From: Synechococcus sp. CC9605
GTDB taxonomy: Bacteria; Cyanobacteriota; Cyanobacteriia; PCC-6307; Cyanobiaceae
Direction of reading: 5' to 3'
NCBI RefSeq assembly: GCF_000012625.1
Contig: NC_007516.1
Location: 1,178,001-1,242,000, forward strand
Length of the DNA stretch: 64,000 bases
Position numbers and translations under genes: made by a program. Positions 40,118 through 42,628 of this stretch are shown in pieces. Under the pieces are notes generated by a model. It searched no databases. It saw only the letters and a list, made by a program, of their open reading frames with translations, and was not told where the DNA came from. How positions within the stretch are numbered: the first letter of the stretch is position 1; every line of letters starts with the position of its first letter.

Positions 40118-40870
40118 TTATTTGGCAAGGCTCAGTGTTTGCTCCTCTAGCAGCATGTTGAACTGCAGCAGTTGTTCATCGCTGAGCTGCTGACGACTAG
40201 TTGCCTCCAATTGTTGTTGGAGAAAAGCTCTGGCTTGATCAGAGCTCCAGCCCAGCTGCTTCAACATGGCGTCTCCTTGCTGCAGTAGGTCACCACGTCG
40301 GATCGGCGCTGGTGCTGTGGACGAATCCTCGTTGGCTTGAATCAACTTCAGCTGACGCAGATAGGCCACGAGATCGGCATAGCGGGTGAGCTTGTGGCGG
40401 CTTCCAAGACCGAAGGCTCGGGTCAAGTAGGCCTGCTCCTGTTCCCGGGACCATCCGATGCGTCTGATTTCCATATCGATGGCGGTCAGCTCATCACTCC
40501 AATCGTCTGGATCCGTTGGGGTTTCGGAGGGGACGTTGTCATCAGCCGTGACGGGAGGTTGTTGGCTGACAGGGGGTTCTGGAGCTGAAGGGGGCTCGCT
40601 TTGATCAATCTTTCTGGGCCGCTCGACGGTCTGCGGCTGTGGGTCCTGTTGATTCGACTTGGATTCAGAGCGAGCCGAACTCTGTGTGTGTTGTGGTCGC
40701 CCAGCGGCATCGAGCCTCGTGTGCAACCGTTGCAACGCCCTTTCCTCAGCTTCTTCAGCAGTCGCGGCTTCACCGAGGGCGCTGCCCTGCAGAGAACCGT
40801 CGTGCCAGGCCTCAACCCGCACGATGCATCTCAGGGTGTCGACGTGACACAGTTCGGCCCGGATCTGCAT
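40118..40870 (-). CDS. Hypothetical protein with disordered middle and helical C-terminus
   Basis: 250 residues from MQIRAELCHVDTLRCIVRVE. The N-terminal ~60 residues form an ordered mixed domain (RVEAWHDGSLQGSALGEAAT). A Pro/Gln/Ser-rich linker covers about residues 65-130. The helical C-terminal part contains two related segments, RRIGWSREQEQAYLTRAFG and KQLGWSSDQARAFLQQQLE, which look like an internal duplication. Function unknown. It is divergent from terC with 38 bp between starts. Confidence 0.65.
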   Translation of the reverse strand: MQIRAELCHVDTLRCIVRVEAWHDGSLQGSALGEAATAEEAEERALQRLHTRLDAAGRPQHTQSSARSESKSNQQDPQPQTVERPRKIDQSEPPSAPEPPVSQQPPVTADDNVPSETPTDPDDWSDELTAIDMEIRRIGWSREQEQAYLTRAFGLGSRHKLTRYADLVAYLRQLKLIQANEDSSTAPAPIRRGDLLQQGDAMLKQLGWSSDQARAFLQQQLEATSRQQLSDEQLLQFNMLLEEQTLSLAK

Positions 40871-40908
40871 CGCAATGGAACAGCGCTTGCACTTTCTAGG
40901 CTGCCGCA

Positions 40909-41646
40909 ATGGACATCACTTCGCTTCCCTCACTGTCGGATTTCTTCGAAGGTGCCGATCAATGGGGAGAGGTTTTGGCACTGCTGCCTGTTCTGGTGCT
41001 GCTGGAGCTGATCTTGTCGGCTGACAATGCCGTGGCCCTTGCGGCCATCGCCCGCAGCAGCCGCCAACCGGAGCAGGAAAAGTTAGCCCTCAATCTGGGC
41101 ATTGGCATTGCCCTGGTCTTGCGGATTGCCTTGATCATTGTGGCCCAGTGGGTGTTGCAAAACGCTTGGGTGCAACTCCTGGCGGCCGCATATCTGGTTT
41201 GGCTGGTGGTTGATCACTTCAACAACCGATCAGGCCCAGATGGGGAGTCCAATGAGAGCAATGAATCCAGTGGTCTGTCCCGCCCCTTCCTGAACACGGT
41301 TCTGCTGCTGGCTTTCACAGATCTGGCCTTCTCCATCGATAGCGTTGCCGCAGCCGTGGCCATCAGTGATCAGATTGTGTTGATCAGCACAGGTGCCTTC
41401 ATCGGCATCGTGGCGCTGCGTTTTACATCTGCCCTGTTCATCCGCTGGCTTGATCTGTATCCAAGGCTGGAAACAGCTGGATTTCTCGCTGTTGCTTTTG
41501 TGGCGCTGCGCTTGATTGTTCACGTTGTCCTCCCAAGCCTCAATCAACCCGACTGGCTCACCCTGTTGGTGGTGCTGATGCTGTTTGCCTGGGGAATGTC
41601 GATCCGTAGCAACGATCTCGATCAGGACGAAAGTCATGCTTGTTGA
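40909..41646 (+). CDS. TerC-family integral membrane protein
   Basis: 245 residues with seven or more hydrophobic segments. The two acidic family motifs are seen: LELILSADNAVALAAIA near residue 35 and FTDLAFSIDSVAAAVAISD near residue 140. TerC proteins are linked to tellurite resistance, manganese export and, in plastids, thylakoid biogenesis. A metal-transport role is inferred from the family. It overlaps the DUF6464 gene by 11 bp. Confidence 0.9.
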   Translation: MDITSLPSLSDFFEGADQWGEVLALLPVLVLLELILSADNAVALAAIARSSRQPEQEKLALNLGIGIALVLRIALIIVAQWVLQNAWVQLLAAAYLVWLVVDHFNNRSGPDGESNESNESSGLSRPFLNTVLLLAFTDLAFSIDSVAAAVAISDQIVLISTGAFIGIVALRFTSALFIRWLDLYPRLETAGFLAVAFVALRLIVHVVLPSLNQPDWLTLLVVLMLFAWGMSIRSNDLDQDESHAC

Positions 41647-41974
41647 ATTGCGCCATATCAGTGGTGATCGTTTGATCCATCGTGTTGACCTTGAGGATCC
41701 ACCACAACCGGGTCGCTGGTTTGTTGTTGAAGAGCAGTCTTTTCTTGTGATGCAACGTCGTCATCGTTATGCGCTTCGCAACGGTCGCTATGTGATGGCT
41801 TCGGTGGCCTTGATGGTGAAACCCCAGGCTCGCCCTGCTGATGCAACACCCTGGCGACATGGCTGGGTGATCGGCGACCCGAACTGTCGTTTCAATGCCC
41901 ACAGCCCTTTGCTCCGCTGTGCCGTATGGCCAGAAGGGCCCTGCGACAGCTGCAGCCACCGTGAACCTCGCTGA
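41636..41974 (+). CDS. DUF6464-like cyanobacterial protein
   Basis: 112 residues from the ATG at 41636, which overlaps terC. It contains PPQPGRWFVVEEQSFLVMQR, a basic HRYALRNGRY stretch, and a C-terminal Cys-containing block, WVIGDPNCRFNAHSPLLRCA followed by GPCDSCSHRE. This arrangement is typical of the cyanobacterial DUF6464 family; function is unknown. Four Cys near the end could bind a metal. It ends 3 bp before the next gene, so terC, this gene and the RFK-like gene probably form one operon. Confidence 0.75.
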   Translation: MLVELRHISGDRLIHRVDLEDPPQPGRWFVVEEQSFLVMQRRHRYALRNGRYVMASVALMVKPQARPADATPWRHGWVIGDPNCRFNAHSPLLRCAVWPEGPCDSCSHREPR

Positions 41975-41977
41975 GAC

Positions 41978-42628
41978 ATGAACCCTGAATGGCTCACAGG
42001 GCGTCTCTGCGCTGGCCACGGAGTGGCCTCCGGCACAAGCAAGGAATCTCCATACCCAGATGGAACGATTCGAATGCAATTCCCTGTGTTCAATGCCTTA
42101 GGGCTTGATCTCTCGAGCTGTTATTTCGGCACGCTAAATCTCGATTTTGCGCCGCTCGAGGTTTCGCTCACGAATCCAGACCACCTGTTCGAAAAGGTGC
42201 AATGGACCAAACTCCACCCCCCTGAAACATTTTCGTTCTGGCGAGTGGAAATCAAGACCACTGAAGTCGAGGTTGTTAGTGGTTGGATCTACCACCCCCA
42301 TCCAGAGACCAAGGAACGTCATTGGCAACCTCCAACAACAGTGGAGTTGCTTGCACCACGTTTAAGTGGGGTGGAACCAGGCTCCACCATTTCTCTCCGC
42401 GATCAACGCAGACGGATCCAACTTGTGGACACGATTCGCTTGCGCGCAAGGCTGCTTGAATTTCTGAAATTCAGAGTGCTGGCCTCGCAGCAAACATTTT
42501 TTGAAGCCGACGCCCTGATGAATCGTCGACAATGGCTGTCGACAATGTTCCCGGAAGCCCTACAACTCTCCGAACTGGATCTCGATCGGGTCTGGACTCA
42601 AGCGCGTTCGTTGTACACGGAATCCTGA
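41978..42628 (+). CDS. Protein resembling archaeal CTP-dependent riboflavin kinase (DUF120/RFK fold)
   Basis: 216 residues. By eye, the N-terminal 140 residues follow the cradle-loop-barrel plan of archaeal RibK: LTGRLCAGHGVASG at the start, GTLNLDF at residues 51-57 (the GTLN motif binds Mg and nucleotide in archaea), and TVELLAPRLSGVEPGSTISL at 121-140. A ~75-residue helical extension (LVDTIRLRARLLEFLKFRVL) is not in the archaeal enzyme. Bacteria normally use RibF, so activity here is uncertain. It lies 3 bp after DUF6464 and is convergent with fmt. Confidence 0.5.
   Translation: MNPEWLTGRLCAGHGVASGTSKESPYPDGTIRMQFPVFNALGLDLSSCYFGTLNLDFAPLEVSLTNPDHLFEKVQWTKLHPPETFSFWRVEIKTTEVEVVSGWIYHPHPETKERHWQPPTTVELLAPRLSGVEPGSTISLRDQRRRIQLVDTIRLRARLLEFLKFRVLASQQTFFEADALMNRRQWLSTMFPEALQLSELDLDRVWTQARSLYTES

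Follow-up and report, generated by a model that had tools for sequence, protein, structure and literature searches.

The fold of RibK is known from the riboflavin kinase of archaea, and in the evolution of barrel folds it is seen as a bridge. In the archaeal enzyme MJ0056 (PF01982, DUF120) we take T43 and N45 to be the ligands of Mg2+; the loop 14-19 together with residues 112-115 presumably contacts CDP, and E107 is assumed to contact FMN. A second described form is RbkR of Thermoplasma acidophilum (HTH-RibK; 3cta, 5trd), in which the RibK domain is accompanied by an N-terminal DNA-binding domain. The bacterial flavokinase is RibF (PF01687).

The window analyzed here is a stretch of 64,000 nucleotides from Synechococcus sp. 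CC9605. It contains a gene for a protein with similarity to archaeal RibK, and we use RKL (RibK-like) as our own name for the family of this protein. The features of the locus are collected in Table 1.

The RKL gene and its neighbors

The open reading frame extends from an ATG at 41978 to a stop at 42628, exactly as placed in a sequence-only reading of this DNA. The gene is kept in nearly all genomes of the same genus with 52-95% identity, and dN/dS over the entire protein, compared with six relatives, is between 0.09 and 0.21. It is therefore a real gene under purifying selection. In one complete genome of the same genus (G032, locus L143) a frameshift near residue 107 splits the gene; this genome may be able to do without RKL, or the frameshift may be an error.

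Three genes are closely packed here: the first, for TerC, shares 11 bases with the DUF6464 gene, and 3 bases separate the latter from the start of RKL, the third. Synechococcus and Cyanobium-like genomes share this gene order. Both neighbors had already been named in the sequence-only reading, and the Pfam matches agree with these names. A literature search on DUF6464 found nothing. On the opposite strand, adjoining the TerC gene, lies a conserved ORF of 263 aa (40118-40909) with genus-wide synteny, whose sole Pfam signal is a weak one below the cut-off to the SAM_SMF domain.

Table 1. Features of the RKL locus (positions in the window; residue numbers of the window protein)
Feature	Position	Strand	Evidence
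Membrane protein of the TerC family; opens the apparent operon	40909..41646	+	PF03741 E 2.3e-42; synteny
DUF6464 protein	41636..41974	+	PF20065 E 3.6e-31; synteny; spacing from ORF calls
RKL protein, whole gene, 216 aa	41978..42628	+	ORF call; conservation; dN/dS ~0.1-0.2; AlphaFold2 pLDDT 90.1
RibK-like cradle-loop-barrel domain, residues 1-146	41978..42415	+	VIA-align to 2vbv; hhalign 95.5%
GHGVASG loop, residues 13-19, counterpart of MJ0056 GLGEGR 14-19	42014..42034	+	alignments
GTLN motif, residues 51-54; T52 and N54 = MJ0056 T43 and N45	42128..42139	+	T and N invariant in 81/81 RKL and 8/8 RibK
PPETFSF motif, residues 81-87, RKL-specific	42218..42238	+	E83, F85, S86 invariant in 81/81
HPHPETK stretch, residues 106-112, holds insertion	42293..42313	+	P107, H108, T111, K112 invariant in 81/81
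E123 = MJ0056 E107	42344..42346	+	invariant in 81/81 RKL and 8/8 RibK
Fused helical domain, from about residue 147; motif RLLEFLKFRVLA.Q..FF	42416..42628	+	model; loci of relatives

Relationship to archaeal RibK

The AlphaFold2 model of RKL, built with a 15-sequence alignment, has a pLDDT of 90.1 and a pTM of 0.82. When this model was compared with known structures by VIA-align 2, the best match was 2vbv, an entry of MJ0056, with Z 14.5, an rmsd of 2.3 Å and 17% identity, 126 of 134 residues being aligned. Ranks one to seven, with Z from 14.5 down to 7.1, were all taken by archaeal RibK: the five entries listed for MJ0056 and the two for Thermoplasma RbkR, where the RibK domain of the T. acidophilum protein aligned with Z 11.1. 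Outside archaeal RibK the top match reached only Z 6.5, and RibF shows a distant barrel similarity (Z about 5-6) which is far weaker than that of RibK. At the level of profiles, an alignment of 13 diverse RKL relatives was matched by hhalign to an alignment of 8 RibK/DUF120 sequences with a probability of 95.5% and a score of 53.7, as compared with a maximum of 23.7 for 200 column-shuffled RibK alignments.

We regard it as practically certain that the barrel of RKL is homologous to archaeal RibK and has the same fold, as the sequence-only reading had proposed. Neither of the two outcomes which that reading had named as refuting it, namely an unrelated fold or a high-scoring match to another family, was found. 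An unrelated protein resembling RibK by short motifs only would be in line with the Foldseek search, where archaeal RibK chains are not among the matches listed for the RKL model, and with the PDB sequence searches (phmmer and profile), which returned chance matches to SH3 and WW domains only and no RibK. However, the structural alignment spans the whole domain and the profile-profile comparison is independent evidence for homology. This explanation is therefore extremely improbable, and as far as the tools reach it is already refuted by the structure and profile evidence.

In scans of Pfam, NCBIfam and PHROGs no family was found above the cut-off for RKL. PF01982 is the Pfam family which RKL members match most often, always below the cut-off (9 of 15 members and, in a second set, 4 of 13; best E 0.004), and no RKL member tested reaches the cut-off. 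The cut-off was passed in none of 145 cyanobacterial genomes, and several of the top matches below it in these genomes are RKL homologues. For the window protein itself no match to PF01982 is listed in the Pfam scan and the flavokinase profile PF01687 gave no match. RKL is a separate unannotated bacterial family and not part of the RibK family as defined.

Motifs and active-site residues

For a comparison at the level of residues 33 RKL and 8 RibK sequences were aligned jointly; the counts out of 81 in Table 1 refer to the alignment of RKL sequences from a genome scan. In the joint alignment MJ0056 G14, T43, N45, P96 and E107 correspond to RKL G13, T52, N54, P107 and E123, and G13, T52, N54 and E123 are invariant across both groups. 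The motifs picked out in the sequence-only reading align as expected: GTLN with RibK G42-T43-L44-N45, the opening G-x-G loop with RibK G14 and the closing ELLAPRLSGVEPGSTISL segment with RibK E107-IIAP...DGD. The second glycine of the G-x-G loop, however, is present in only 9 of the 33 RKL relatives, and this part of the proposed likeness does not hold for the family.

RKL also departs from RibK at several positions. All 33 RKL sequences lack four residues that include R115, which is invariant in the RibK sequences, and the position of MJ0056 D122 is mostly occupied by Tyr and is not conserved. After P107 five residues (HPETK) are inserted in RKL where archaeal RibK has a gap, the position of MJ0056 T99 corresponds to H115 in most RKL sequences and the loop before the helix is longer (SPYPxGTIxMQ). 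In addition the motif W76...E83-x-F-S-F is nearly invariant in RKL. With T52, N54 and E123 kept, R115 deleted and the insertion present, RKL retains the presumed residues of the metal and catalytic sites, but with a nucleotide loop and a substrate side that have been rebuilt.

The C-terminal helical domain

Beyond about residue 147 the model of RKL forms four helices. This domain alone gave no clear match in Pfam, among PDB sequences or among PDB folds, and its fold may still be a known one. In other genomes the same domain occurs as a separate cyanobacterial protein of 70-85 aa which is encoded by an adjacent gene, alone or as part of a fusion. In G090 (L146) a stand-alone RKL (752-1237) is followed downstream by an ORF for the C-terminal domain (1462-1704), and in three further genomes (G102, G045 and G066) the domain is found without RKL. 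G022 has kept it as a short clean ORF with its own ATG next to fmt (L142:2104-2330; 82.5% identity), whereas the TerC, DUF6464 and RKL parts are missing at the same place. Since the domain is separate in the first of these genomes and alone in the other four, the most plausible reading of the window protein is that two genes, once separate, were fused. This would have happened in the Synechococcus/Cyanobium line. What had been described as a new helical C-terminal extension is helical and real, but it is a fused small protein and not an appendage of RibK. Compared with RbkR, the window protein does not carry the N-terminal DNA-binding domain and has the helical domain at its C-terminus.

Other fusions and gene neighborhoods

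RKL is also found in fusions of a different kind. In Pseudanabaena (L050, L090, L098 and L112) its N-terminal fusion partner is cpYpsA SLOG (PF12694, E 1.1e-30), a separate domain which the window protein does not have; a literature search for cpYpsA, SLOG and riboflavin kinase together found nothing relevant. On three enterobacterial plasmids RKL is fused to a GT9 glycosyltransferase. At the enterobacterial plasmid loci L132:6891-8465 and L134:4891-6465 the RKL-like domain is C-terminal, and the neighbors are radical SAM, PHP phosphatase and glycosyltransferase-like genes with DUF262 nearby (and at L132 also AbpA). A fusion with shikimate dehydrogenase is present in a MAG labelled Acidobacteria.

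Such unlike partners would fit a portable ligand-binding module, and we therefore considered whether RKL could be a non-catalytic domain which senses a flavin, a nucleotide or a sugar-nucleotide and regulates its partners, with the helical or other fused domains as output. The changed nucleotide loop would suit this explanation too, and the conserved residues of RKL could serve the binding of a nucleotide or flavin without catalysis. On the other hand T52, N54 and E123, the presumed catalytic-site residues, are invariant in all 81 sequences and the extra invariant H/T/K motif exceeds the usual needs of binding alone. A purely sensory role seems to us rather unlikely.

The gene neighborhoods were considered as a guide to the substrate and rejected for this purpose because the neighbors are unlike at 40 cyanobacterial and about 20 other loci. 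Recurrent neighbors are few and lineage-bound, and most other loci have nothing in common. In five genomes of one cyanobacterial family (L171, L180, L189, L195 and L199) RKL follows directly after ChpXY (CO2-hydration) of an NDH-1 set, and at four of these five loci a second ndhF/ndhD/chp set comes after RKL. In Variovorax (L206:1725-9624) a LacI regulator, an ABC sugar transporter, an MGH1-like glycoside hydrolase, a ROK kinase and RKL are encoded in a row; nearby are RbsD, another ABC set for sugars and a kinase of the PfkB type. The neighbors are similar in MAGs labelled Polaromonas and Brachymonas, RKL thus being the last gene of a sugar-use cluster in three betaproteobacteria. In a single cyanobacterium (L182) ribD follows RKL in the same orientation after a gap of 113 bp. 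Fusions and neighbors are leads and do not name a substrate.

In the course of this survey a bacterial DUF120 protein was noticed on a plasmid of Azoarcus sp. KH32C (L139:7974-8411). Its gene sits between those of the UbiX flavin prenyltransferase and a NUDIX protein in a phenylphosphate carboxylase/UbiD cluster, and RibK was likely recruited there for the supply of prenyl-FMN.

Distribution and coexistence with RibF

A GTDB scan with one conserved RKL peptide as query yielded 306 RKL coding loci, distributed patchily over many phyla. The best 80 of the 306 belong to Cyanobacteria, Chloroflexi, Proteobacteria and Actinobacteria (Janibacter) and to MAGs labelled Verrucomicrobia, Gemmatimonadetes, Acidobacteria, Bacteroidetes and others. 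The protein had been introduced as a cyanobacterial relative of RibK; it is cyanobacterial, but the family is not limited to this phylum. Within the Cyanobacteria RKL is present in 77 of 242 genomes, two thirds of the sample being without it, and among the genomes listed it is absent from those of 1.6-1.7 Mb of the same family. It occurs in 4 of 274 genomes of the class to which the Polaromonas-labelled MAG belongs. Neither viral contigs, searched with two different queries, nor phage records contained a relative.

The genome of our strain encodes a separate RibF with FAD_syn and flavokinase domains, and PF01687 matches at this one place only and not at RKL. Each of the 15 RKL genomes examined for the flavokinase domain has it, and RKL is therefore accessory and not the sole FMN source of the cell. 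This coexistence with RibF also sets RKL apart from archaeal RibK.

These findings bear on the proposal of the sequence-only reading that RKL is a CTP-dependent riboflavin kinase. A genuine riboflavin kinase using CTP or another NTP could supply FMN in addition to RibF, as a back-up or in a regulated way, and it would be consistent with the fold and the T/N/E residues shared with MJ0056, with the position upstream of ribD in one cyanobacterium and with the Azoarcus protein beside UbiX/UbiD, according to which bacteria can apparently recruit RibK to provide flavin. But RibF is found in each of the RKL genomes tested, the arginine invariant in RibK is missing throughout and D122 is not conserved, RKL members stay below the PF01982 cut-off and adjacency to a flavin gene was noticed at only 1 of 40 cyanobacterial loci. 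We consider a riboflavin kinase unlikely and would not maintain the proposal as such; that riboflavin is the main acceptor of RKL is correspondingly doubtful.

Proposed function

Since RKL is a separate family which stands beside ordinary bacterial RibF, it probably has another job. From the pattern of retained and altered residues we favor, with a probability of roughly 0.55, that RKL is an accessory Mg-NTP-dependent small-molecule kinase whose nucleotide and substrate pockets have changed. The barrel would most likely work in a RibK-like manner: Mg2+ held by T52 and N54 would position the phosphates of the NTP, and with the help of E123 a small substrate would have one of its hydroxyls positioned or activated to receive the gamma-phosphate. 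Because both the loop for the nucleotide and the pocket for the substrate are remodelled, riboflavin would probably not be the acceptor, or at least not the main one, and the preference for cytosine may no longer apply. The helical domain would probably tether or regulate the enzyme, since it is encoded next door or alone in relatives.

Parts of this proposal differ in strength. That RKL is a kinase of some kind, riboflavin included, we infer to be likely, and a kinase of something other than riboflavin is still somewhat favored. More tentatively, RKL could be a widespread bacterial family of Mg-NTP-dependent kinases with the RibK fold, a changed nucleotide preference and a new acceptor, for which a sugar, polyol or nucleoside carrying a free primary hydroxyl would be conceivable. 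Against any kinase it can be argued that no consistent operon partner of RKL names a substrate.

The fusion described here gives a cyanobacterial protein of 70-85 aa of unknown function a Rosetta-stone partner. RKL itself is small and easy to test. If the more tentative proposal of a widespread kinase family with a new acceptor is true, it would be a kinase family that is named by none of the profile libraries searched (Pfam, NCBIfam and PHROGs). Patchily distributed, coexisting with RibF and equipped with the same metal-site residues as RibK and with an invariant motif of its own, RKL would represent a kinase-like enzyme that lacks an assignment.
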